Shown here piece after piece: positions 1,869 to 36,723 of a stretch of DNA of 44,657 bases. The stretch spans positions 1 through 44,657 of IMG/VR virus record IMGVR_UViG_3300038441_000115. One strand, given 5' to 3'. The notes beneath the pieces are model-generated. The model worked only from the letters and a program-made list of their open reading frames with translations, made no database searches and was not told where the DNA came from. The DNA is from a virus. Position numbers and translations under genes: made by a program. Each line of letters opens with the position of its first letter. Position 1 is the stretch's first letter.

Positions 1869-2324
1869 ATGAATGATTCTGCCCGGGACAAAGAGTCCCA
1901 CAAAGTATTCGTCTACGGTACGTTGAAGGGGATGGATCGTCCCGGACGGGGTCGTGACAAGGCCGGAGTCAAGTTTCTCGGCAAGGGTCACACCTACTTC
2001 GGGACTTTCTGTCTCCACGGTGGTGGCTTTCCTGTCGCCAATCGCATCAACGGTATCCCAAAGGGGCTTGAAGCGCCAATGGGTCATATCCTTGGCGAGC
2101 TCTATGAAGTATCGACGAAAGTCCTTCAGGGCCTGGATGACTACGAGGGTGCTCCTCACTTCTATGAAGCGGAGCCTGTCACTCTTGTGATGGAAGACGG
2201 TCGTGACGAACTCGCACTGATGTACTTCGGTCGTGACGTCAATATCTCCCTTGCAGGCCGTCCTATCATCGAGCCAGACAACAACAACATGCTGTACTGG
2301 CCGTTCCCTTCTGAATACAGGTAA
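1869..2324 (+). CDS. Gamma-glutamylcyclotransferase-like protein (AIG2/GGCT fold)
   Basis: About 151 residues. The N-terminal VFVYGTLKG is the family signature, and an acidic residue in LDDYEG sits where the catalytic Glu is expected. The family releases 5-oxoproline from gamma-glutamyl amines or peptides, or trims gamma-glutamyl-amide conjugates. It opens a run of amide-chemistry genes (two glutamine amidotransferases, two amidoligases, an ATP-grasp ligase), so trimming or editing a gamma-glutamyl product is a reasonable inference. The start at 1869 is preceded by AAGG ten bases upstream; an in-frame ATG at 1797 is the alternative. Confidence 0.8.
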   Translation: MNDSARDKESHKVFVYGTLKGMDRPGRGRDKAGVKFLGKGHTYFGTFCLHGGGFPVANRINGIPKGLEAPMGHILGELYEVSTKVLQGLDDYEGAPHFYEAEPVTLVMEDGRDELALMYFGRDVNISLAGRPIIEPDNNNMLYWPFPSEYR

Positions 2325-2327
2325 GTC

Positions 2328-2561
2328 ATGCCCGGCAAAGCTCAGAGACCTCCAAACCCTCAACTCCATCCTGCTTTGTTCGATTTGTTTACAGAGCAAG
2401 ACGCCAAGGGAATGCCTTTGTTGCAGCTCTCTGAGAAAGCCGGGTACCACTACCAAAATCTCCGAGGCATCCGCCAGAGAAGGGTGTCTCCTTCGTTTCA
2501 ACTCGTCGTCGATCTGGCTGAAGTCCTCGGCTACGACATCATCATCAAGAGGAAATCATGA
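2328..2561 (+). CDS. XRE-family helix-turn-helix regulator
   Basis: 77 residues with one HTH of Cro/CI type: the LSEKAGYHYQNLRGIRQRR region supplies helices 2 and 3, followed by FQLVVDLAEVLGYDI, the usual closing helix. It probably binds DNA as a dimer. It is read just after the GGCT-like gene and overlaps the next gene by four bases (ATGA), so it may regulate this cluster or host genes. There is no integrase or CI/Cro pair, so it is not evidence of lysogeny. Confidence 0.75.
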   Translation: MPGKAQRPPNPQLHPALFDLFTEQDAKGMPLLQLSEKAGYHYQNLRGIRQRRVSPSFQLVVDLAEVLGYDIIIKRKS

Positions 2562-2878
2562 CTCTTTTTCGCAAGCCCGTGAAGGGCGACTATCTTCGGT
2601 ATTTAGCTACCGGCGCTGTTGTACCAGTACCTGCAGATTGGTCTGACGCCATTTTCCGGGACTACAAGGACGCCCACGAGTTCGTCACCATCACTGTCGT
2701 CGAGCCCCCTCCGAAGCCGAAGGACGTGTACGTCAACATTTACCAGAATAATGAATCCCTGTGGACCGGAGGTGCATATATTTCTTTAGAGGAATGCATC
2801 GACGCAGCTAAGGTGAGCACTACCGAATGTGTAGGCCGCGTCAACCTCACCAAACACATCGGCACCTTCGATGACTGA
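2558..2878 (+). CDS. Hypothetical protein (106 aa)
   Basis: Overlaps the XRE gene by ATGA. A short globular protein with a Pro-rich linker (EPPPKPKD) in the middle, then a strand-rich half with two Cys residues. No catalytic motif or membrane segment; family not recognised. The overlap with both neighbours suggests coupled translation in the amide-chemistry operon. Confidence 0.6.
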   Translation: MTLFRKPVKGDYLRYLATGAVVPVPADWSDAIFRDYKDAHEFVTITVVEPPPKPKDVYVNIYQNNESLWTGGAYISLEECIDAAKVSTTECVGRVNLTKHIGTFDD

Positions 2879-3062
2879 GGCTACCGTCCGTCTGAAAATC
2901 CGTGGTGGAAAGGTTTTGCCTGCCACGGTGCCCGAGCGTGTTGCCGCAGGTCTGAAGAAACATCCTACGGACTTCGAGGCCATGATGCACGTCGAGGGTC
3001 ACAAAGGGTTTAACGAAAACCTTGTCCAGTTCTTCATCGAATCCGAGGCCTGCAATGGTTAA
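2871..3062 (+). CDS. Hypothetical small protein (63 aa)
   Basis: Starts inside the end of the previous gene (ATGACTGA overlap) and overlaps the amidotransferase gene that follows by eight bases. It is basic at the N-terminus and acidic at the C-terminus, with two His residues in MHVEGHKGF. No family recognised. The tight overlaps make it part of the operon rather than chance. Confidence 0.55.
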   Translation: MTEATVRLKIRGGKVLPATVPERVAAGLKKHPTDFEAMMHVEGHKGFNENLVQFFIESEACNG

Positions 3063-3615
3063 CAAGGTGTTCGTCATCGGCATTGATCATTCGGTCACTG
3101 CTATGTTCAAGAACGAAGGATGGGACGTCCGAGATGACCCGCAAGAGGCTGACTTTTTATGCTTCACCGGAGGTGCTGACGTCTCTCCTGATCTGTATGG
3201 GGAGGTCAATGTCGGCCTATCCTACACCGACCCTGCCCGAGATACCCGTGAGACCGCCCTCTACAACGCCTTCAAAGGTGCCAAGCGTTTCATCGGTATC
3301 TGCCGAGGAGGACAGTTCCTCAACGTCATGAACGGCGGCAAGATGGTTCAGGATATTCCTGGTCATCGTATGGGGCGTCAATCTTCGTGGATTGCGTTCA
3401 TGGAGAGCCTCGTCTCTGTTAATCTTCACGAAGACCACCATCAAGGAATCGTACCTGCCGAGACCGGGCAGGTCTTTGCATGGTCGAAGAAGGACAACGT
3501 CTGTGAAGGGGTCTGGTACCCTGAGACGCGTTCTTTCTGCTTCCAACCCCACCCTGAATGGGGTGATGAACCGACAAGGCAGGCTTTCTTTAACCTGCTT
3601 CACTTCTACCGTTAA
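3055..3615 (+). CDS. Class I glutamine amidotransferase-like protein (gamma-glutamyl hydrolase/peptidase C26 type)
   Basis: 186 residues, a stand-alone class I amidotransferase domain. The nucleophile elbow is GICRGGQ (Cys83) and the other triad members are in FQPHPEWG (His166, Glu168). FTGGADVSPDLYG resembles the GGxDxxPxxYG signature of the PuuD/peptidase C26 branch, which cleaves gamma-glutamyl bonds instead of feeding a synthetase. It may therefore hydrolyse gamma-glutamyl conjugates or supply ammonia. The start at 3055 has GAGG six bases upstream. It sits directly before a class II amidotransferase. Confidence 0.85.
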   Translation: MVNKVFVIGIDHSVTAMFKNEGWDVRDDPQEADFLCFTGGADVSPDLYGEVNVGLSYTDPARDTRETALYNAFKGAKRFIGICRGGQFLNVMNGGKMVQDIPGHRMGRQSSWIAFMESLVSVNLHEDHHQGIVPAETGQVFAWSKKDNVCEGVWYPETRSFCFQPHPEWGDEPTRQAFFNLLHFYR

Positions 3616-3632
3616 CCAGGAGAACTGCCCGC

Positions 3633-4994
3633 ATGTGCGGAATCACCGGGATTTACTCCCAGAACATCGGAATGACTGAGCGAGAGCTCTTCCAATCGCT
3701 GCTGATGCTGAACGTCTATCGTGGCAAGGACAGCACCGGCGTCGTCCGTATCAATGAGCCCGGCAAGGGTTCTTCGGCAGCGATCAAGCGTGTTGTCGCT
3801 CCGTCCCCGGCATTCGTGACTGCCAAGTATGGCAACGATATGATCTGGGATCATGACAAGAAGGAGACGAAGGATCACACGAAAACCATCGGCTATATCG
3901 GTCATTGCCGTGCTGCGACTAAAGGCGAGGTCAAAGTCCAGAACGCTCATCCGTTCCGGTTTAACCACACCATTGGCGTCCACAACGGCACCATCCGCTG
4001 GGCCTTCAAGGGATCCAGTGAGTACGAGACCGATTCAGAAGCTCTCTATGCCCTCGTGAATGAGGTCGGCATCGAAGAAGCTCTGAACGAAATCCGGAAT
4101 GCTTCTCCGGCCTATGCCCTGTCCTGGATCGATACTCAGGAAGGGACCCTCAACTTCGTCCGCAACCTCGAACGTCCTCTCTGGTTCACGTTTCTCTACG
4201 CCAAGGGTACGTTGATGTGGTCTTCCGAGTGGGAGATGATGGACTTCGCTCTCGACCGGCGCTCGACCCGTCTCTCTACGTCCGGCTTTGGCAAGGACAA
4301 CGTCGGAAACGACAAGGGCTTCTTCACGATCAAGGAAAACCATCTATTGTCGATCCCTCTCGGCAAGAGTGCTTCCGAGGCTAGCATCAAGCCCCTGAAC
4401 GTCAAGAAGGGTGTCACCTACACAACGGGTACGACGTACGTCCATGGCGTCAACTACGACTCGTGGGAAGACTACGCCAACAAGAATCCTTCCAAGGGGG
4501 GTAGCACGTCCTCGGACGGCTACGGTAACTTTCGAGACAAGTATGGGAAGGAAGGTATCACCAGCCTCCCCTGGCTTTCCGATGAGCAGAAAGAAAGCTC
4601 GAAGGATAGCTCGTCAGGAACGCAAACGGCTGCGGCTGGGAACGACAAGGGAACAACTATCAAGGCAACGGTAGGCAATTCTACCGGGGCTCTCGTTCCA
4701 CTGACTCCTGAAACGAAGCGCCACCCCCATGGTCAGGAGCCGGTCCACCAGTCCGAACGCAACTTTCGGCTTAGCCGTGGCTGCTTCTGCTGTGGCAATA
4801 GTGTTGATCCTAACGATCATGCAGCCGCATCCCGTGTCCACTGGTGGAACCGTCAGTTCTTCGCGTGTGGAGACTGTTTCGATAACGCCTCTGGGGAAAC
4901 TGCTTGGGTACGTCTGGCAGTCGAGGGTGAAATCCCCACCGAACTCGTAGAGCTGCTTGGATCAGACGAACTCTCCAAGGTCACTATTAACTAA
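3633..4994 (+). CDS. Class II glutamine amidotransferase with C-terminal zinc ribbon
   Basis: 453 residues. It begins MCGITGIYS, so removal of Met exposes the Ntn nucleophile Cys2. Downstream are RGKDSTG, GHCRAATKGE (Arg93) and AHPF...HNGTI (Asn118, Gly119), the glutamine-binding and oxyanion residues of the PurF/AsnB/GlmS glutaminase domain. There is no AsnB, PurF or GlmS partner domain. After about residue 300 the protein is Ser/Gly/Lys-rich and low in complexity, then carries a likely zinc ribbon (Cys384, Cys387, Cys412, Cys415). It should release ammonia from glutamine for a separate ligase, presumably one of the amidoligases downstream. Confidence 0.85.
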   Translation: MCGITGIYSQNIGMTERELFQSLLMLNVYRGKDSTGVVRINEPGKGSSAAIKRVVAPSPAFVTAKYGNDMIWDHDKKETKDHTKTIGYIGHCRAATKGEVKVQNAHPFRFNHTIGVHNGTIRWAFKGSSEYETDSEALYALVNEVGIEEALNEIRNASPAYALSWIDTQEGTLNFVRNLERPLWFTFLYAKGTLMWSSEWEMMDFALDRRSTRLSTSGFGKDNVGNDKGFFTIKENHLLSIPLGKSASEASIKPLNVKKGVTYTTGTTYVHGVNYDSWEDYANKNPSKGGSTSSDGYGNFRDKYGKEGITSLPWLSDEQKESSKDSSSGTQTAAAGNDKGTTIKATVGNSTGALVPLTPETKRHPHGQEPVHQSERNFRLSRGCFCCGNSVDPNDHAAASRVHWWNRQFFACGDCFDNASGETAWVRLAVEGEIPTELVELLGSDELSKVTIN

Positions 4995-5024
4995 GCCACT
5001 TGTGGCGTATTGAAGGAGCCCATT

Positions 5025-5894
5025 ATGGGTCAGACTAAGACTATCGTTGCCGATATGAACGAGGCCGAGATCGTCCTCAAGAAGGCTGTATCGGGAGCCT
5101 CTGGCATGTCCTATGGCTATGTCGTGAACGACAAGGATGTCCTCACGGTATATCACAACTCCGGCCAGCCGTGTTACGGCGAGATGCGTCCCTACGGCAG
5201 CACTCACAAGGATGTCCAGCCAGAGCGTCAGGCCAAGGTTGGCAAGCCCGGCGATCTCCATTCGCCTTTCCCTCAGACAGGCAATCCTGTGCTTGTCGCT
5301 CAGTCTCTCTACACCAAGGTTCAGCCGGGCGATACCGAGGCGACTATTGACTTCCTGAATGCCTATCTTGATCCCGAGACCTCTCCGTGGCGTGATGCCA
5401 GCAAGTTCGGTTCGATCATCATGGATGGTGACCGTCCGGCTGGTATCTTCTATTCGAGCACTGACTTCAATCCGACAATCTTGGTTGAAGGCTGGATGTT
5501 CTTCCGTGGCAAGCTGGGAACTTATGGGGCCAAGGCCTGGAAGGAACTCCGTGACAAGTTCCCCGAAACGAACACGGCAGAGCTTCTGCTATTCTGGGGT
5601 CTTCTGACGACCTACGACAGCTCGACGTACTACGTTCAGGGCAACGACTATACGTTGTCTACGTTCCTCGATCCCAAGTTGTTCCTCGCAGGGACTCCTA
5701 TCATCGAAGGCCCGACTCTCCATGACCGTGGCGCATACGACCGTCCAACGCTCCATGATCTCTTCGGTCATACCAAAACCAGCATTCTTGCTGAACTCAA
5801 GAAGCAGTATCCTTCTTTGAATTCCAGCTACCAGATCACCAAGGCACAGCTTCCCGAGGCCTTCAATGCCTTCCAGAAAGTTCTTGCCGCCTAA
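5025..5894 (+). CDS. Unknown protein of the amide-chemistry cluster (289 aa)
   Basis: Strong Shine-Dalgarno AAGGAG six bases before the ATG at 5025. A well-folded-looking mixed alpha/beta protein with no membrane segment. I do not recognise a family. It lies between the class II amidotransferase and the COOH-NH2 ligase with little spacing, so it may supply the substrate peptide, act as a scaffold, or be a new enzyme of the pathway. A Thr/Leu/His/Asp-containing motif (GPTLHD...RPTLHDLFGHTK) repeats TLHD twice near residues 225-245. Confidence 0.7.
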   Translation: MGQTKTIVADMNEAEIVLKKAVSGASGMSYGYVVNDKDVLTVYHNSGQPCYGEMRPYGSTHKDVQPERQAKVGKPGDLHSPFPQTGNPVLVAQSLYTKVQPGDTEATIDFLNAYLDPETSPWRDASKFGSIIMDGDRPAGIFYSSTDFNPTILVEGWMFFRGKLGTYGAKAWKELRDKFPETNTAELLLFWGLLTTYDSSTYYVQGNDYTLSTFLDPKLFLAGTPIIEGPTLHDRGAYDRPTLHDLFGHTKTSILAELKKQYPSLNSSYQITKAQLPEAFNAFQKVLAA

Positions 5895-5943
5895 GCCGGC
5901 CGCTCAACTCTCGCTTCCGTTCACCCTCACACTGAGAAACGAC

Positions 5944-6855
5944 ATGCCCGTCCGTATTGTTTCGAATACGACATCGAAGGACAGCACTTCCTTCGCTTAC
6001 TCCATCGGCTGTGATCCCGAGCTCTTCCTCGTTGATTCCACCGGCAACTTCCGGTCTGCCCACGACCTCATCCCTGGCGACAAGTTCCAGCCGATGCGCG
6101 TCACGAAGGGTGCCATCCAGCCAGATGGTACTTCGGCCGAGTTCAATATCGATCCGGCTACTTCAGACGAAGAGTTCTGTGCCAACATCAAGGCCGTCCT
6201 CGTCGATCTCAGCAAGCACCTGAAGGAAAAGGCGCCGGGTCTGACGCTCCGTGTGTCTCCTGTGGCCGACTTCGAGGCGAACTACTTCAACTCTCTGCCT
6301 CCAGAAGCTCTCGCCTTCGGCTGTACGCCGGACTTCAATGCCTGGACGGAGAAGCGGACGGAGTTCCCCGGAACCACCCTGCCGTTCCGTACTGGTGCTG
6401 GCCATGTCCATGTCGGCTGGACTGAACATGCTGACACGGCTGACGACGCTCATTTCTTTGATTGCATCGAAGCAACGAAGCAGCTTGACGCCGTCCTCTA
6501 TCCGATGTCATTGCTCTGGGATCCCGACAAGAAGCGTCGGACTCTCTATGGCAAGATGGGTGCGTTCCGTCCGAAGCACTACGGTGTCGAGTACCGCCCT
6601 CTGAGCAATGCCTGGGTTGCCGATCCCGACCTCCAGAAGTGGGTCTTCAATGCGACCCGACGTGCCATGGAGCTCCTTGACTCCAAGGTAAAGCAGGTGA
6701 AGCTTTGGGAAGACAAGGATCTCGGACACTACACCAAGATCATCCGTGATGGTCTGACGATCATGCCTTCGGAGCTCCGCGCCACCCATGAAATTCTGGT
6801 CGATGACTTGGGTTTCCAACCTCTTCCGAAGGCTTACCGCCCGCTGGCTTTCTAA
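5944..6855 (+). CDS. COOH-NH2 ligase type 2 (phiEco32-like amidoligase)
   Basis: 303 residues in the glutamine synthetase-like amidoligase superfamily. GCDPELFL (residues 22-29) gives the first metal-binding acid; AEFNI (around 66) the second; GAGHVHVGW (His154, His156) matches the conserved GGHIHIG; YGVEYRPLSNAW (Glu216, Arg218) is the phosphate- and metal-binding strand. These are the hallmarks of the Pfam family named for phage phiEco32. The enzyme should use ATP to join a carboxylate to an amine. Flanking amidotransferases and an ATP-grasp ligase support a multi-step amide or peptide pathway. The substrate is unknown. Confidence 0.85.
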   Translation: MPVRIVSNTTSKDSTSFAYSIGCDPELFLVDSTGNFRSAHDLIPGDKFQPMRVTKGAIQPDGTSAEFNIDPATSDEEFCANIKAVLVDLSKHLKEKAPGLTLRVSPVADFEANYFNSLPPEALAFGCTPDFNAWTEKRTEFPGTTLPFRTGAGHVHVGWTEHADTADDAHFFDCIEATKQLDAVLYPMSLLWDPDKKRRTLYGKMGAFRPKHYGVEYRPLSNAWVADPDLQKWVFNATRRAMELLDSKVKQVKLWEDKDLGHYTKIIRDGLTIMPSELRATHEILVDDLGFQPLPKAYRPLAF

Positions 6856-6889
6856 GTCCAGCTCACTCGACCTGAATCGAGAGGACAAT

Positions 6890-7600
6890 ATGACTACAAT
6901 CTTGACGAAGCAGTCGGATCTCTTGCCAGAGCTTCGTTATACTTCGGCGTCTGATGTCAAGATGCGTCTCCAAGAAACCATCGTGAGGTATCGCGGCGAG
7001 CTCTGCTATGTCCGTAATGTCACTCACGTAGTAGACTGGGATCTGCATCTTGCCCTCACCCTACGGGGTCTTGAAGGCAGTATCAAGGGTTCTGAATTCT
7101 ATGTCCATTCATCGGACAAGCATTTGGACATCGAGTCTATTCCGATGGGCTGGGCGAATTCGGCAGACCAGCAGGGTTTTCCGTTGTTTCTTGCCCGGAC
7201 TACCCGTACTGCTCAGAAGCAGGGACTATGTCCTCAAAGTCTGGCCGTCTGGAATATGACGTATTCAGACCAAGGGAATGGGTGGCCTACGAGTTCTTGG
7301 GTGTATTTCGAGCCTCTCGTAGACTGCATCAACAACAAGGAGTTCGCTATCTCCTCGGCCTCTGGCCCGAAGGGTGGTGTCATCAATGCCTCATGGGCAC
7401 TGATCCCTGTGTCTGGGACGAACGAAAAGATCTTCACGGTCTGGCACAACTCTATCTGCGTCGGGACCTATACCCCGGCTAACAGATCTTTCCTGCTTCG
7501 TCGTGGTCGGCTGACCAAGGTCCGCAAGCATATGTTGCAGGAAATTTTCCTCAACGATTTGAATCGAGGTATTCGTTATGGCATCATTGAACAGCCTTGA
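6890..7600 (+). CDS. Unknown protein between the two amidoligases (236 aa)
   Basis: ATG at 6890 with GAGG five bases upstream; its end overlaps the second amidoligase by 23 bases, so translation is probably coupled. It looks beta-rich, with strands such as ELCYVRNVTHVVDWDL and SWALIPVSGTNEKIF, and a basic C-terminal tail (RSFLLRRGRLTKVRKHML). No recognised catalytic motif, signal peptide or membrane segment. Position suggests an accessory subunit or target of the amidoligases. Confidence 0.65.
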   Translation: MTTILTKQSDLLPELRYTSASDVKMRLQETIVRYRGELCYVRNVTHVVDWDLHLALTLRGLEGSIKGSEFYVHSSDKHLDIESIPMGWANSADQQGFPLFLARTTRTAQKQGLCPQSLAVWNMTYSDQGNGWPTSSWVYFEPLVDCINNKEFAISSASGPKGGVINASWALIPVSGTNEKIFTVWHNSICVGTYTPANRSFLLRRGRLTKVRKHMLQEIFLNDLNRGIRYGIIEQP

Positions 7601-8807
7601 CACGCCTTTCTACGCCATCCAGAAAAAGGCTAAGCCTATTCCGGGCGACGTAGGTGTCGAGCTGGAGATCGAAGGCTCGATGGCACACGGTACTCCTGCC
7701 GGTCACTGGAGCTTCAAGGAAGAGGGTAGTCTTCGGTCTGGGGGTGAGTACGTCCTCTCTAAGCCCTGGCCGATCAAGCTACTCCCAGAGGCTCTCCAGG
7801 ACCTTCAGAAGGCCATCGATAACTCGAAGCCACAGAACTCCATCCGGTGCAGTACGCACATCCACGTCAACGTCACGAGCTACACTCCTCGTCAGGTCTG
7901 GTACATCTTGCTGGCTTACTACCTGCTTGAACCAATTCTGATGCGGACCCAGCCTCGTAAGCGTTGGGGCAATCTGTTCTGTCTCACGATGGAGCACGCC
8001 GAGAACATCTACCTCGATCTCGAATGGGATCTCTACAACCACAAGGCCCAGGCGTTCGACACGTTTACTCGTGATCGCAATCGCTATGCAGCTCTGAACC
8101 TTGTCTCTGTCAAGAAGTTCGGCTCGATCGAGTTCCGCTTCCTCGACGCGATGACAAACTGCAAGGACATCCTTGCGTGGTCCCAGATGTTCCACACGCT
8201 GACACAGGTCGCCAGCAATCTCACTCCGAACCGTCTCTTCAAGACTTATGACGAGCTGTCACCGGCTGAGTTCATTCGTTCTTTGATGGGGCCAAACTCG
8301 GATAAGTACATCCTCGACAAGCTGCCTTCGGACCTGAACCTCAACCAGCTCATTCATACGAACTATGACTACATGATTGAACTGGCTCAGGATCTTTCTT
8401 TCAAGAAGTTCCAGCTTCCCAAGATGTTCTGGGACGCCGATCTCTATGATCCGACGCAGGCCAAGGAGATGTACGCTGTGGGGGAGCTGCAGGAGGGTGA
8501 CGATTGGGCTGCCCCGCCGACTCCTCACCCTCAGGTCATCAATACACTTCAGGGTCAGCCCTGGCCACCTAATATGACAGCAGCTCAGATCCAGCAGATG
8601 GTGGCAAATATTGCGGAGCACCAGCCTCAACCACCTCAACCTACTGGATGGACTGGCGACATTACACCAACAGGTGCTGTAACCGCTCCACCTGCTGCAG
8701 CTCATACGTGGACGATCTTCGACGATGTGGGCGCGCCTCCCGAGTTCGAGCCTGATGATTTTGCGACGACCGCTCCGAATCATCTTGACGACCCGGAAAA
8801 CTTCTGA
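7578..8807 (+). CDS. Second amidoligase (Amidoligase_2-like) with Pro-rich tail
   Basis: 409 residues. GVELEIE (Glu28, Glu30) near the start, GGEYVLSKP (around 55-63), CSTHIHVNV (His94, His96), YAALNL and SIEFRFLDAM follow the Amidoligase_2 pattern of acid, EYVLS, HxHV and ExR strands in the GS-like fold. It should be an ATP-dependent carboxylate-amine ligase, distantly related to the enzyme at 5944. The last 90 or so residues are a Pro/Gln/Thr-rich low-complexity tail unlike the core, possibly a tether or a modification site. The start overlaps the previous gene. Confidence 0.8.
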   Translation: MASLNSLDTPFYAIQKKAKPIPGDVGVELEIEGSMAHGTPAGHWSFKEEGSLRSGGEYVLSKPWPIKLLPEALQDLQKAIDNSKPQNSIRCSTHIHVNVTSYTPRQVWYILLAYYLLEPILMRTQPRKRWGNLFCLTMEHAENIYLDLEWDLYNHKAQAFDTFTRDRNRYAALNLVSVKKFGSIEFRFLDAMTNCKDILAWSQMFHTLTQVASNLTPNRLFKTYDELSPAEFIRSLMGPNSDKYILDKLPSDLNLNQLIHTNYDYMIELAQDLSFKKFQLPKMFWDADLYDPTQAKEMYAVGELQEGDDWAAPPTPHPQVINTLQGQPWPPNMTAAQIQQMVANIAEHQPQPPQPTGWTGDITPTGAVTAPPAAAHTWTIFDDVGAPPEFEPDDFATTAPNHLDDPENF

Positions 8808-8813
8808 TACTAT
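8785..8813 (+). promoter_or_regulatory. Candidate sigma70 promoter for the ATP-grasp gene
   Basis: TTGACG (5/6 to the -35 consensus), a 17-base spacer, then TACTAT (4/6 to -10). Other -10-like words (TATTAT, TATACT) follow at once. It lies inside the end of the second amidoligase gene and just before the ATP-grasp gene, so it could give that gene independent expression. Confidence 0.5.
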
Positions 8814-8814
8814 T

Positions 8815-8831
8815 ATACTCTAGGAGAGTAT
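8815..8831 (+). promoter_or_regulatory. Perfect 7-bp hairpin enclosing the Shine-Dalgarno of the ATP-grasp gene
   Basis: ATACTCT, loop AGG, AGAGTAT: a perfect inverted repeat whose loop and 3' arm contain the AGGAG that serves the ATG at 8833. As RNA it would mask the ribosome site; as DNA it could be an operator next to the promoter, for example for the XRE protein of the cluster. Confidence 0.6.
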
Positions 8832-8832
8832 T

Positions 8833-9705
8833 ATGCCTGACTACTACACGGACTCGCTGGGCTACATCAAGCAGGCTAAGCGCAAGCCCCGCTCGACCCT
8901 GACTGGCAACAAGGATGTCTTCCTTCTGCCTTACAACAAGTTCTCGCAGGGTGCGAAGGCTCTCATCAAGGGCCTTGACCTTATGTACAACTCGGTCCAG
9001 CGGCTCGAAGAAACCTACGTGATACATCCTAATGACACCAAGGTCAAGACGGTGATCAACTGGGGCTCTGGCAACTTTCCCGGGTGGCTTCGTGCTATCT
9101 CCACCAAGGTGCTGAACGACACCACGGCAGTCAATATCTGTCGTAACAAGGTGAAGTTCTTCCAGACCGTCGGCGACAAGGCTCGCATTCCTGAGATTCT
9201 CTACGAGCTGGAGCCCGCCCTTGCTCTTGTCCGCGATGGCAAGCTCGTCATGGGCCGTAAGGCTAACGGGTCTTGCGGCACGGATATCGTGTTCTACGAG
9301 GAGAACGCTTCGGAATTCTCGAAGGCTGACTTCTGGTCGGTCTACAAGAAGAAGAAGCACGAGTTCCGTGTCCACATCTTCAACGGAGAGATCATTGATC
9401 TTCAGCAGAAGGCTCTTCGTACTACCGATCCGGCTGGTAATCCCATGCCGACGAACGACATCGACTTCCGTATCCGCAACCATCGCAATGGTTTCATCTT
9501 CAAGCGGAACGAAATTTCTGTCCCGAATGACGTGACTGTCCAGGCTCTGGCTGCCTTTAAGGCAATCCCTGGTCTGGACTTCGGTGCTGTCGATGTCATC
9601 TATAACGAGTATGAAGACAAGGCATACGTCCTTGAAATCAATACTGCACCCGGCCTTGAAGGCACCACCCTCGAAAACTATCTCAAGGCCTTCAAGACTA
9701 TTTAG
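8833..9705 (+). CDS. ATP-grasp ligase (RimK-like)
   Basis: 290 residues. The central part has LVMGRKANGSCGTDIVF, the flexible ATP-binding loop and hinge of ATP-grasp enzymes, then HEFRVHIFNGEII, and the C-terminal FGAVDVIYNEYEDKAYVLEINTAPGL in two parts, where the acids and the EIN motif hold Mg-ATP. The family makes acyl-phosphates from carboxylates and couples them to amines, commonly adding amino acids to peptides or proteins. It closes the amide-chemistry cluster and has its own candidate promoter and a hairpin over its ribosome site, suggesting separate control. Confidence 0.85.
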   Translation: MPDYYTDSLGYIKQAKRKPRSTLTGNKDVFLLPYNKFSQGAKALIKGLDLMYNSVQRLEETYVIHPNDTKVKTVINWGSGNFPGWLRAISTKVLNDTTAVNICRNKVKFFQTVGDKARIPEILYELEPALALVRDGKLVMGRKANGSCGTDIVFYEENASEFSKADFWSVYKKKKHEFRVHIFNGEIIDLQQKALRTTDPAGNPMPTNDIDFRIRNHRNGFIFKRNEISVPNDVTVQALAAFKAIPGLDFGAVDVIYNEYEDKAYVLEINTAPGLEGTTLENYLKAFKTI

Positions 9706-9734: not shown

Positions 9735-9974
9735 ATGCCTCGTTGTGTCACATGCGATAAATGCTCAGAAATTGACGGCGGGTCTCACCAGCAGTATACC
9801 TGGTCCAAGAAGGACAACGGATATGTCTGCTCTACCTGCCGTCAGTATAGCTTCAAACAACCAGTATACGTGGAACAAAATGGAGAGGTCCCAATCCTCG
9901 ATGACGACTTGGAAGGACTTGAACTTCTGGAAGACACCAGCCTGGCACGAAGTCCTCAAGACACTGAAGGCTGA
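9735..9974 (+). CDS. Small zinc-ribbon protein (79 aa)
   Basis: Cys residues at the start (CVTCDKCS) and again after 30 residues (CSTC) form a CxxC...CxxC zinc ribbon; the C-terminal half is acidic (VPILDDDLEGLELLED). The ATG is part of TATAATG, preceded by GAAAGGCG as Shine-Dalgarno. It overlaps the UDG-like gene by about 70 bases in another frame. It could be a nucleic-acid-binding or inhibitor protein; function not assignable. Confidence 0.6.
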   Translation: MPRCVTCDKCSEIDGGSHQQYTWSKKDNGYVCSTCRQYSFKQPVYVEQNGEVPILDDDLEGLELLEDTSLARSPQDTEG

Positions 9975-10554
9975 GGAGGGTCAGTTCGTACCGCCTATTG
10001 AGGATGTATTCCGTCCATTGATTGAGACACCACTCGATAAGGTCCGTGTCGTGATCCTTGGCGGTGAGCCTCACTCAATGATGGCTAACGACGGGCTGGC
10101 CTTCAGCTATCCCCGTGTAGTACAGGACCCGGGTCTCCTACCGCAAACCCTCCAGAATATCTTTGAGGAGTACGAACACGATCTTCGCTGGCCTACTCCT
10201 AAATCCGGGTGTCTTGATAAGTGGGCTCAGTATGGCGTCCTCCTCTGGAACGCCACTCCGACTGTCCATAAGTCCAAACCGAGGAGTCATGTCGGTATTG
10301 GATGGCACGAACTCACGAATGAAATCCTGACGACGTGTTACAACGAGAACCCAAACACTGTCTTCCTTCTGTGGAACACAGCCAGGGATCACTACATCGA
10401 TTTCCTTCCTGAGAAGGCTCTTATCGTCGATGCCGTAGGCCCACAGATCATGGGGAAGGACTTCGATCAATTCTTTGGCAGTAGCCCATTCACCAAGGTT
10501 AACTCCATGCTGGTAGCTACAGGTCAGGACCCGATCTTCTGGCGATTGCCATAG
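9901..10554 (+). CDS. Uracil-DNA glycosylase-fold protein with altered active site
   Basis: 217 residues aligning by eye with family 1 UDG from the N-terminal Trp region to the end: KVRVVILG, GLAFS, TLQNIFEE, GVLLWNATPTV, SHVGIGWHELT and VFLLWNTA match E. coli Ung blocks. The water-activating motif GQDPYH reads GGEPHS (residues 54-59), with Asp replaced by Glu and the Tyr-His lost. The HPSPLS loop with catalytic His is replaced by GPQIMG. It is therefore either inactive on uracil, for example a DNA-binding or partner-blocking protein, or has a new substrate. GGAGAGG lies 12 bases before the chosen ATG; an in-frame ATG at 9880 is possible. Confidence 0.8.
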   Translation: MTTWKDLNFWKTPAWHEVLKTLKAEEGQFVPPIEDVFRPLIETPLDKVRVVILGGEPHSMMANDGLAFSYPRVVQDPGLLPQTLQNIFEEYEHDLRWPTPKSGCLDKWAQYGVLLWNATPTVHKSKPRSHVGIGWHELTNEILTTCYNENPNTVFLLWNTARDHYIDFLPEKALIVDAVGPQIMGKDFDQFFGSSPFTKVNSMLVATGQDPIFWRLP

Positions 10555-17060: not shown

Positions 17061-17277
17061 ACCCAATTGCGCACAATGCGACGCCACTAAGAAGCACCTA
17101 GACAAATTGGGAGTACACTATACAGTCTTTGATGTCTCTGAAGATGAGAAGGCTTTGAACTTCATCGTCGGTATGGGATACAAGGCTGCTCCTGTCGTCG
17201 TCGCTGGTTTTAACCATTGGTCGGGTTTCCGGCCTGATCTGATTAAGGAGCATATCGTTGGAAACGAAGCCGTCTAA
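17038..17277 (+). CDS. NrdH-like glutaredoxin
   Basis: 79 residues, thioredoxin fold. ITVYSKPNCAQCDATKKHL has the redox CxxC (CAQC) after the first strand, and KAAPVVVAG holds the cis-Pro. NrdH-type proteins reduce ribonucleotide reductase; none is encoded in the window, so it probably feeds electrons to the host enzyme or another reductase. It starts at TTG inside the preceding gene, with GGTAG as a weak Shine-Dalgarno. Confidence 0.8.
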   Translation: MLITVYSKPNCAQCDATKKHLDKLGVHYTVFDVSEDEKALNFIVGMGYKAAPVVVAGFNHWSGFRPDLIKEHIVGNEAV

Positions 17278-17686
17278 CCCCAAGGACTCTGTAGGCATCA
17301 AGAAGGTTCCCTTCTCTACGGTACCTTCGGAGGTCACGGCCGAGGTCGGTCTAGCCATGCTCGAAGGAGCTCTCAAGTATGGTCGTCATAATTATCGCGC
17401 TGTGGGTGTGCGTGCTTCAGTATACTATGATGCTTGCTTGCGACATCTGGTATCGTGGTGGGAAGGGCAAGATATTGATCCAGACTCCGGGCTCTCCCAT
17501 CTGGTCAAAGCCATCGCTTGCCTTTACGTTATCCGAGACTCTCAACATATGGGTAACTGGACTGATGATCGTCCTCCCACTATCCCTGACAAGGATGAGT
17601 TCATTACCGAGCTAAACACCCTGGCAACAAACCTTCTGAATAAATACCCAGATCCTGTTAAAGCATTTACGAACAAGGAATTGTAA
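17258..17686 (+). CDS. dATP/dGTP diphosphohydrolase-like protein (MazG-related)
   Basis: 142 residues. NPKDSVGIKKVPFSTVP followed by GALKYGRHNYRAVG, YYDACLRHL, GQDIDPDSGLSHLVKA match a phage family annotated as dATP/dGTP diphosphohydrolase (all-alpha NTP pyrophosphatase-like). Such enzymes hydrolyse purine (d)NTPs to monophosphates and pyrophosphate, adjusting pools. The TTG start is well supported: AAGGAG lies seven bases upstream. It overlaps NrdH by 20 bases. Confidence 0.75.
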   Translation: METKPSNPKDSVGIKKVPFSTVPSEVTAEVGLAMLEGALKYGRHNYRAVGVRASVYYDACLRHLVSWWEGQDIDPDSGLSHLVKAIACLYVIRDSQHMGNWTDDRPPTIPDKDEFITELNTLATNLLNKYPDPVKAFTNKEL

Positions 17687-34305: not shown

Positions 34306-34578
34306 TTAGTTAGTGGGCTCTTCAGGCCAAGTAGGTTCACCAGGTTCATAAGTACCCGGAAGATCCCGTAGGGCTTGCCTATACGTTGCCCAAGCTTCTG
34401 TATTAACAGGGGCGTCGGAAAGCTGGGTCCAGTCAGACTCAGCAAGAAGACGATTGCGCTTCTGACGATGCGCATCCCAAGGATTTACGACAATCCGAGA
34501 GGCCTCCCATTCGGAAACCTCCTCGTGTGTCATTTCGACTTCTTTAACTCCGTCTGGGCCTACAACGAGTTTAATCAT
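34306..34578 (-). CDS. Tail fibre assembly chaperone-like protein
   Basis: 90 residues. RQKRNRLLAESDWTQLSDAP followed by WATYRQALRDLPGTY is the common signature of small phage tail assembly chaperones (Phage_tail_APC type). It lies directly after the tail fibre gene with a four-base overlap, the usual place. It probably helps fibre folding or trimerisation. Confidence 0.8.
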   Translation of the reverse strand: MIKLVVGPDGVKEVEMTHEEVSEWEASRIVVNPWDAHRQKRNRLLAESDWTQLSDAPVNTEAWATYRQALRDLPGTYEPGEPTWPEEPTN

Positions 34579-36191
34579 CCTCGCTTTCCTTCCAATGTAA
34601 AGCGACTACCAACACCAATATTGCCCGTATTGCAGATCAGGCGCAGCATGTTGCGTGCAACGTTTGTATTGTGGTAGCCCGCCCGCATGCTCTGTTGCCC
34701 ATCGGACGCCGAACTCAAAGACCCTGATTGCGCTTGGTATCGTGCGGGCGCGGCTTTATTGAAATTAAAGAAGTGGGCGGCAATTGAGGCAACTTGCAAA
34801 GAACTTGCGTTACCAACAAGGTTTGTTAGAAATCCTTTTGTTGACGTTGTAATATTCGCCACTGTGGTGGAATTTGTTATTGCGAAGGCATGGTTTCCGT
34901 AATTGCTGCCTGTGTCTGGCGTACCTGCCCCAAGCTGAAACCCCAAAACGTCATCAGACGATACAGGTGCAAACCAAGCCGTGAGCCGAAGTTCAGAATA
35001 CGCCGACAGCGACGTAAAATCAATAAAGGCCGTAGATGTGGTGACTACAATCTCGGGTCCAATCTGCTCCCAAACCTGAAGAGTGTTCTTCAGGACGTTG
35101 ACCTTTGTTGCACCGGAGTAAGCCTGTGCGCTCTGGTCAACATCCTTACGAATCACTCCAGAAGTCAGGATCTGTTCGATTTCTACGAGGTCAACATCGG
35201 CTTCGTTGATAAAGGCATCATAAGCCTTGATAACAAACTTACCGATAGCTGCTTTGACACGGGTTTCCGAAGCATTAAAGCGACCAGTAGTACCCGTCGC
35301 CTGGGTATACATACCAGAAGGCAGCGGATTAGTGCCCGTATTACCGACACTACCCGGCGCAATGATTGTACCACCAGCAGCAGCACCAACAGCACTTTGT
35401 TCGTGGGTATGATTTTGAATGGCGTCTTCCTGCGTAGCCCCGGAGGAGCCCGCAAGGGAGCCTGCATGGCGCAGAACACGGTCGCGATAGTCAGGAAGAG
35501 TCGTAGTCCCCAAGAACGTAAACAGATCTGGATAAACTAGAGCGTCAAACGTGCCGCCTTCACAGACAAGATAACCACCTGGTACTGCACCAGTCGGAGA
35601 GAAGAAGACAAGGCCGATTGGAACGGATCCAGAAGAATCACCCTGTGGGCCTTGAGGACCGGTAGGACCAGCAGGACCGGTAGGGCCCGGATCACCTTGA
35701 ACACCCTGAATACCTTGTGGACCCGGAGGACCTTGGATAGAGCCGGCATCAACCCATTCAGTATTTACAGAGTCCCAGACCCAAAGATTGCCATCGATAA
35801 GCCAGGCATCATCTGGGGAGTCAGGTAGAGCAGGAAGTTCCGATGGATCGTTGAGCTCACCCTTGATAATCAGACCAACGCTGCCCTGCGGACCCATCGG
35901 TCCAGTAGGACCCTGAGGACCGGTAGGACCAACTGGACCAGTAGCACCCGGAGGACCCGGCTGAACGTCTTGAAGACGGGCTAGATCGGAGGGAGCGAAA
36001 GGAGCTGGATTATTGATGACACGATTAAAATTCATGTCCAGAGTGTTCTGCATCTGATTGGGTGCGAAACCGTTACGGCTAAGCGTATTTTCAAATGCAG
36101 TCTGGATGGCAGCGAAGTTAGCATTAATCGTGGCGACAGCCGACGTCTTGTTATCCAATGACGCCAGTGTAGAGATATTAACCTTAGGCAT
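34575..36191 (-). CDS. Tail fibre with collagen-like repeats and tail-collar domain
   Basis: 538 residues from the ATG at 36191. An N-terminal attachment region; two Gly-X-Y collagen-like stretches (GPPGATGPVGPTGPQG and GPPGPQGIQGVQGD begin them) separated by a small WLIDGNLWVWD domain; then a phage tail-collar domain (VPIGLVFFSPTGAVPGGYLV, LPDYRDRVLRHAG) with QNHTHE; and a 190-residue C-terminal domain, presumably receptor-binding. The last domain uses more AAA, ACA and GCG codons than its surroundings, as if exchanged from another phage. Confidence 0.88.
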   Translation of the reverse strand: MPKVNISTLASLDNKTSAVATINANFAAIQTAFENTLSRNGFAPNQMQNTLDMNFNRVINNPAPFAPSDLARLQDVQPGPPGATGPVGPTGPQGPTGPMGPQGSVGLIIKGELNDPSELPALPDSPDDAWLIDGNLWVWDSVNTEWVDAGSIQGPPGPQGIQGVQGDPGPTGPAGPTGPQGPQGDSSGSVPIGLVFFSPTGAVPGGYLVCEGGTFDALVYPDLFTFLGTTTLPDYRDRVLRHAGSLAGSSGATQEDAIQNHTHEQSAVGAAAGGTIIAPGSVGNTGTNPLPSGMYTQATGTTGRFNASETRVKAAIGKFVIKAYDAFINEADVDLVEIEQILTSGVIRKDVDQSAQAYSGATKVNVLKNTLQVWEQIGPEIVVTTSTAFIDFTSLSAYSELRLTAWFAPVSSDDVLGFQLGAGTPDTGSNYGNHAFAITNSTTVANITTSTKGFLTNLVGNASSLQVASIAAHFFNFNKAAPARYQAQSGSLSSASDGQQSMRAGYHNTNVARNMLRLICNTGNIGVGSRFTLEGKRG

Positions 36192-36723
36192 TGAACACAC
36201 CGTTAATTGTGACGTACAGCGGTTGGGCCGTAGTCGATGCACCGTCTGTCGCTACTTCCATCCAAGTCGGGCCAGTCAGATTGTTATTGCTGGTCGCAGT
36301 GAATGTAAACGTAGTTCCTTTGGCTGAGCCAGCCTGAACGATATTGACGTTTGCTCCCATTGAGGAGCCAGCAGCATTCTTGACAGAGACGACAGAGTTA
36401 GCTACTGTGATTGCGCCACCGAGAGTAAAAGCGCCCCCAATGATTCGACAATTCGTCGGAATGGCGAACAACAGACTCGATGCCGTGGATACGTCAGTGA
36501 TGACTCCAGTAAGAACAAAGGGGGTCGGCAGGAGCAAAGTACCCGCTTGGGCATCGCTCCGTAGGACCCCCTCGATCTCAGTCATATTCAGACTGTTCGA
36601 CGACAAAATCGTCCAAGCACCGGAACCGCCACCATTAGCACGGTATACTGTGTTATTGGCAGCCGTGCTGACACCTTTCGGCTCATGGATATTCGGATCA
36701 GTGATTGTGACGTGCTCGACCAT
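36184..36723 (-). CDS. Virion-associated beta-rich protein (179 aa)
   Basis: MVEHVTITDPNIHEPKGVST is a start seen in small phage structural proteins placed between capsid and fibre genes; the rest is Ser/Thr/Ala/Val-rich beta sequence with no Cys. Probably a decoration or fibre-base protein. It overlaps the fibre gene by eight bases. Confidence 0.6.
   Translation of the reverse strand: MVEHVTITDPNIHEPKGVSTAANNTVYRANGGGSGAWTILSSNSLNMTEIEGVLRSDAQAGTLLLPTPFVLTGVITDVSTASSLLFAIPTNCRIIGGAFTLGGAITVANSVVSVKNAAGSSMGANVNIVQAGSAKGTTFTFTATSNNNLTGPTWMEVATDGASTTAQPLYVTINGVFNA

Follow-up and report, generated by a model that had tools for sequence, protein, structure and literature searches.

A complete copy of the podovirus amidoligase cassette in an IMG/VR virus record and the gamma-glutamyl chemistry it probably performs

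Short-tailed phages carry a gene cluster that has been described as the 'peptidoglycan modification cassette' of RIO-1-like podoviruses (PMC5498523, citing Iyer and Hardies) and named there in phiEco32, 7-11, PA11, tf, MR299-2, LUZ24, PaP3 and CW02. Such genes have also been called nitrogen auxiliary metabolic genes (AMGs), in phage ZRK32 (PMC10945688). No test of a cassette product was found in the literature searched. Here, we analyze a copy of this cluster at positions 1869–9705 of virus record IMGVR_UViG_3300038441_000115; the window is that entire IMG/VR record, 44,657 bases.

The window shares with the described podovirus cassette (RIO-1, PSA-HP1, phiEco32, 7-11, PA11, tf, LUZ24, PaP3 and CW02) its two amidoligases, ATP-grasp ligase, glutamine amidotransferase (GATase) and GGCT, and its position in the early region beside replication genes. 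A COOH-NH2 ligase (L), which is gamma-glutamylcysteine-synthetase (GCS)-like, is clustered with the second amidoligase (A) and the ATP-grasp ligase (G), the GATase and GGCT lie in the same cluster, and a uracil-DNA-glycosylase (UDG)-like gene, a DNA polymerase and a primase/helicase follow downstream on the same strand, confirming the early-region placement. The window differs in its distant sequence and in additionally containing a C26 gene (also present in TC6, CW02 and most others) and a protein, X, between the class II GATase and L. The cassette is real, conserved, common to hundreds of short-tailed phages and already described; taken by itself, the window is an ordinary find, one more complete copy of a known cassette. 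Taking identity and chemistry jointly, we consider it likely that the region is a complete podovirus amidoligase cassette acting as an early-region module for making and trimming amide bonds of the gamma-glutamyl type.

All six amide-chemistry enzymes are encoded on a single strand and were assigned with Pfam and PHROGs (Table 1). The initial annotation had proposed six such enzymes with intact key motifs; hidden Markov model searches of each protein confirmed the families, and conservation across 42–105 relatives per enzyme confirmed the catalytic residues (numbering follows the open reading frames, ORFs, of the window). In L, the GxDPE motif, E92, H180xH182, R235xK237 and E242xR244 are intact, and an alignment of 18 sequences contains 26 invariant columns; L has no sequence relative in the PDB. 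A retains E28xExE32, H94xH96 and E185xR187, while G retains the ATP/Mg residues K106, K193, D254, E268 and N270. The C26 triad (C94/H177/E179) is intact, being invariant in 80 members, and GGCT keeps its catalytic E128; its departure, an Ala replacing an Arg present in 98% of GGCTs, does not concern the catalytic Glu. G fell below Pfam cut-offs (Dala_Dala_lig_C, 21.9 bits against 24; RimK, 13.6 bits against a gathering score of 21, E 0.05) but matched PHROG 2599, 'ribosomal protein S6 glutaminyl transferase', at 4.8e-52, and from these profiles we class it solely as an ATP-grasp of that family. The class II GATase keeps its nucleophile C2 together with R93, N118-G119 and D134. Of 105 members, 86 have at least two CxxC motifs beyond residue 200, a C-terminal pair that is a putative zinc ribbon, and no other Pfam domain was found in the ORF, which is thus without an attached known synthase domain of the ammonia-channelling type.

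We surveyed how common the cassette is. By tblastn, L was present in 317 of 50,697 phage records, and the window L was less than 60% identical to every phage record. Single-protein scans of viral contigs with X, K (a further cassette protein) and L returned one locus or none, and an alignment of the ligase was needed; scanning IMG/VR with it returned at least 585 stretches, from which the 80 loci nearest to the ligase were taken and combined with annotated phages. Because they were picked by ligase and as the closest 80, these loci are not a random sample. Counts were made on 69 cassettes with at least 6 kb upstream and at least 4.5 kb downstream of the ligase; the window is not among them, having under 6 kb of record ahead of its ligase, and L009, the same contig as L019, was excluded.

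The class II GATase, L, A and G were present in 69/69 cassettes, K in 66, X in 59, C26 in 54 and GGCT in 30, most commonly in the order X-C26-GATaseII-L-K-A-G. The same cluster occurs in annotated distant phages, including Zobellviridae, LUZ24-like phages, tf, Gordonclarkvirinae, Grimontviridae, Lahexavirus, Rhizobium/Sinorhizobium phages and others. Chance is ruled out, since phages very distant from one another retain these genes as a set. The proposal that these genes travel together as one amide-chemistry pathway is borne out by these conserved neighborhoods. The accompanying view that the pairing is unusually rich is not, because two amidoligases, an ATP-grasp and a class II GATase are the standard content of all 69 cassettes and have been published (PMC5498523).

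Hundreds of lytic phages, with hosts that include Pseudomonas, Escherichia and Vibrio, carry the cassette, and Bas90 (L104), a Kuravirus, has the whole of it. Bas90 infects O-antigen-restored Escherichia coli K-12, and its group resists restriction-modification for a reason that is not known (PMC11990801). What the cassette makes can be tested directly with this carrier and the core set, which comprises class II GATase, L, K, A, G, in most cases X, and C26 or GGCT; the core set including K and X, with Bas90 as test phage, is worth keeping. In RHph_I3_11, phiM6 (Rhizobium/Sinorhizobium) and related contigs (L004, L015, L020–L023), a second class II GATase lies beside GGCT, and several of these contigs also have a second ligase. 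Two candidate additions were rejected. An apparent second ATP-grasp at L008:4337-5881 arose from profile drift and disappeared with a clean profile, the ORF being an X-family protein with an N-terminal extension; a class II GATase match in L045 (736 aa) was at least partly spurious, Pfam giving a capsid/prohead protease.

C26 and GGCT tend to replace each other. Across the 69 cassettes, 38 have only C26, 14 only GGCT, 16 both and one neither (Fisher p 1e-5, uncorrected for relatedness), so that 68/69 have at least one. The ligase tree shows 8 changes for C26 and 11 for GGCT. Among independent pairings, GGCT was opposite to C26 in about 60%, never the same way bar one drawing, and otherwise unchanged. 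The best PDB matches of C26 include free-standing gamma-glutamyl hydrolases/peptidases, namely Lin1909, gamma-glutamyl peptidase 1 (GGP1) and PuuD. Because of these matches and the alternation with GGCT, C26 looks like a trimming enzyme rather than an ammonia supplier, and the pattern suggests that C26 and GGCT are interchangeable removers of a gamma-glutamyl group, which may be a new point. Consequently, of the supply-ligate-trim pathway first proposed, the ligating and trimming gene set stands and supply by C26 is doubtful. Of the other genes noted there, an XRE regulator and two proteins without assignment, all are present; the regulator is XRE-like at a score below the HTH_3 cut-off and lies outside the conserved cassette, while the two proteins, K and X, are cassette parts, which may also be new.

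K belongs to PHROG 11055 (75 of 76 members), and its AlphaFold2 (AF2) model (pLDDT 86.9) is made of small SH3-like beta-barrels. In the Foldseek viral library, its K counterparts from other cassettes, CW02 among them, matched it over its full length. Against the PDB, it weakly resembled EF-P/eIF5A, Tudor, HspQ and HEX-1 (best E 0.044, TM about 0.2), and no significant EF-P/eIF5A match was obtained. K has no invariant residue of catalytic appearance, and its conserved loop carries Arg as well as Lys, indicating that there is no fixed acceptor lysine. Weak Pfam SspH matches in 9 of 76 members (best 4e-4) were not used.

The window X joins the X family by profile-profile comparison (98.4%, E 1e-14; other cassette families, as controls, below 2%), and the family usually sits just upstream of C26. 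Its sole fully invariant residue is a cysteine, kept in 83/83 members. The AF2 model of X (pLDDT 77.5) had no PDB fold match, no Pfam link was found, and neither X nor K has sequence relatives in the PDB. By tblastn, K matched no phage record and X matched three Rhizobium phages. LUZ24 gp14/gp15 and Bas90_0084/0085 were dropped as X relatives, their profile links not being significant. Fourteen X-family ORFs (L036, L064, L066, L088, L098 and others) have N-terminal extensions of about 190–370 residues; the three tested (L005, L008 and L011) gave no Pfam domain. K and X are the fastest-diverging cassette parts, with mean pairwise identities of 0.25 and 0.18, compared to 0.30–0.49 for the enzymes (L 0.49, C26 0.40, G 0.36, A 0.32, class II GATase 0.30).

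These components can be arranged into a mechanism. By their families, L and A (GCS-like) and G (ATP-grasp) would each use ATP to join a carboxylate and an amine, and three such ligases could form up to three amide bonds. Glutamate would be attached via its gamma-carboxyl and removed later: if C26 and GGCT are alternative enzymes that take the gamma-glutamyl group off, the pathway would add glutamate and then remove it. A class II GATase handles glutamine, either as an ammonia donor or as a gamma-glutamyl hydrolase. K could act as an adaptor without catalysis of its own and X as a partner that works through its cysteine, and their faster divergence is what contact with a host-specific target would lead one to expect. 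The likeliest target of the mechanism would be a cytoplasmic host amine, for example a peptidoglycan precursor peptide; taken by itself, that identification is tentative. In the related phage SU10, ATP-grasp, GATase and YtfP/GGCT-like proteins were detected by mass spectrometry of phage preparations, which supports expression of the module; a 23.3-kDa hypothetical protein in the same table has the mass of K, not of the amidoligase, though the CDS number listed for it is not that of the GenBank tag (PMC4281155). Several points weigh against this arrangement. The class II GATase could genuinely donate ammonia, and L could use an acid other than glutamate. The functions given to K and X are guesses, the fold search with X having come back empty. 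Independent C26/GGCT changes are few (the best tree gives 8 pairs, well-supported branches only one), so the replacement is suggestive, with weak support once phylogeny is corrected for.

What the amide bonds are attached to can be read in several ways. The published reading is that three ligases put unusual linkages on stem peptides or precursors, edited by GGCT and GATase, for superinfection exclusion or wall tuning. Section 16 of PMC5498523 describes the cassette so, a wall/superinfection proposal for phiEco32 is reported in PMC10580990, and wall chemistry also employs amidoligase and ATP-grasp folds; yet no muropeptide or exclusion experiment was found in the literature searched, and the family matches of the cassette include no MurT-like ligase, the known wall-amidation partner. 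We regard modification of the wall as a possibility worth holding, short of an even chance. Somewhat less likely is a small-molecule pathway, in which L, A and G would couple polyamines or amino acids to a gamma-glutamyl group and C26 or GGCT would release the conjugates. The C26 matches to PuuD/Lin1909-type hydrolases and the near-constant presence of C26 or GGCT (68/69) speak for it, as does an unconfirmed two-hybrid interaction of LUZ24 gp9 with the host gamma-glutamylpolyamine synthetase PauA2 (PMC4635203); the gp9 gene (L108) is located upstream of the cassette. Such a pathway would recall the gamma-glutamyl-putrescine route of PuuA/PuuD, with ATP-dependent gamma-glutamylation and a C26 hydrolase, but PuuA is glutamine-synthetase-like, whereas the window has GCS-like ligases and no oxidase or dehydrogenase. 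Ergothioneine EgtA/EgtC likewise pairs a GCS-like ligase with a class II GATase-like hydrolase, as L adjoins the GATase here, and butirosin BtrJ/BtrG pairs an ATP-grasp with a GGCT-like remover; however, no Egt- or Btr-specific genes were seen in the window. Besides ligases and hydrolases the cassette has no dedicated transformation enzyme, and rapid divergence of K and X would be odd if the metabolite were fixed.

If SH3-like K instead guides the ligases to a protein of the host, or to its ribosome, for attachment of an amino acid or peptide through an amide bond, the precedent is RimK acting on ribosomal protein S6, likewise an ATP-grasp ligase of PHROG 2599. The presence of K in 66/69 cassettes, a top Foldseek list rich in EF-P/eIF5A/HEX-1/Tudor/HspQ, the PHROGs label of G and the fastest divergence in K and X fit this reading. 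However, every K fold match in the PDB has E above 0.04 and TM about 0.2, the Arg-or-Lys loop offers no fixed acceptor, and G lies below the Pfam RimK cut-off and, unlike RimK, is always accompanied by a further two ligases and almost always by K. Protein tagging is unlikely. A more specific form of it is improbable, in which K and X serve as target-recognition and cysteine-relay parts of an amide-conjugation system, a gamma-glutamyl or peptide tag being placed on a host protein (at the ribosome, for instance) and taken off by C26 or GGCT. Hypermodification of the phage genome could be argued from the adjoining replication genes and from the Gordonclarkvirinae, cassette carriers for whose resistance to restriction-modification no pathway is known (PMC11990801). 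Yet tf carries the cassette and its DNA was handled with RsaI, HpaI, EcoRV, SmaI and HaeIII (PMC3517423), and the BASEL authors favor a dCTP deaminase; a DNA-linked target, which the initial annotation had listed, is accordingly not favored and has very little probability. Least probable of all, barely credible in our view, is that these are host-derived nitrogen-metabolism genes, as claimed for ZRK32 (PMC10945688). A ligase scan of 84,980 bacterial/archaeal species genomes (one pattern, non-exhaustive) matched five contigs of 4.9–49.5 kb, two of them about 48–50 kb and whole-phage-like. This result fits phage DNA and may be a new point against host-derived AMG readings.

The window contig is lytic and podovirus-like. 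Its + strand carries the early genes (DNA polymerase, exonuclease, endonuclease VII and primase/helicase), which are followed by endolysin-like, tail, head-tail adaptor and large terminase genes, the structural genes being on the - strand. No tRNA or long terminal repeat was found in the window. DNA matches of its first 8 kb to phage records were limited to pieces of about 60–70 bases. The starts of L (ATG at 5944) and K (6890) were set from homologues, that of L by alignment. The XRE-like gene and the 106-aa ORF between GGCT and C26 had no relative among the loci tested.

Table 1. Cassette genes and other features of the window
Feature	Position	Strand	Evidence
GGCT/AIG2-like gamma-glutamyl cyclotransferase (trimming)	1869..2324	+	PF06094 (GGACT) 1.1e-11; phrog_2520; in 30/69 cassettes
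XRE/HTH_3-like small regulator, outside conserved cassette	2328..2561	+	HTH_3 2.4e-4, below cut-off
106-aa ORF, outside conserved cassette	2558..2878	+	no Pfam/PHROG match
C26 class I glutamine amidotransferase-like/gamma-glutamyl hydrolase-like	3055..3615	+	PF07722 (Peptidase_C26) 8.4e-18; phrog_7218 2.4e-42; 54/69
Class II (Ntn) glutamine amidotransferase, C-terminal CxxC...CxxC	3633..4994	+	PF13522 (GATase_6) 5.3e-12; phrog_4736 4.2e-52; 69/69
X, conserved cassette protein with invariant cysteine	5025..5894	+	profile-profile match to X family; 59/69
L, phiEco32-type COOH-NH2 ligase (gamma-glutamylcysteine-synthetase-like amidoligase)	5944..6855	+	PF14395 1.6e-7; phrog_3815 3e-68; 69/69
K, near-universal cassette protein, SH3-like beta-barrels	6890..7600	+	phrog_11055; 66/69
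A, Amidoligase_2 enzyme, long C-terminal tail	7578..8807	+	PF12224 1.1e-7; phrog_7469 6.7e-55; 69/69
G, ATP-grasp carboxylate-amine ligase	8833..9705	+	phrog_2599 4.8e-52; 69/69
Uracil-DNA-glycosylase-superfamily protein, immediately downstream of cassette	9745..10551	+	PF03167 1.3e-7
dATP/dGTP diphosphohydrolase N-terminal family protein	17258..17683	+	PF18909 2.7e-25
Tail fibre; collar domain and collagen-like repeats in units spaced 9 nt	34578..36242	-	

The idea of a PurZ-type 2-aminoadenine genome was dropped, as no match to PurZ, the adenylosuccinate synthetase homologue, was found across the whole record. Promoter-like sites were no more frequent than in shuffled sequence. A purine-rich, Shine-Dalgarno-like stretch precedes most cassette genes, several of which adjoin or overlap one another. 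The UDG-superfamily protein next to the cassette has the motif GGEPHS, at the position where the classical UDG motif is GQDPYH.

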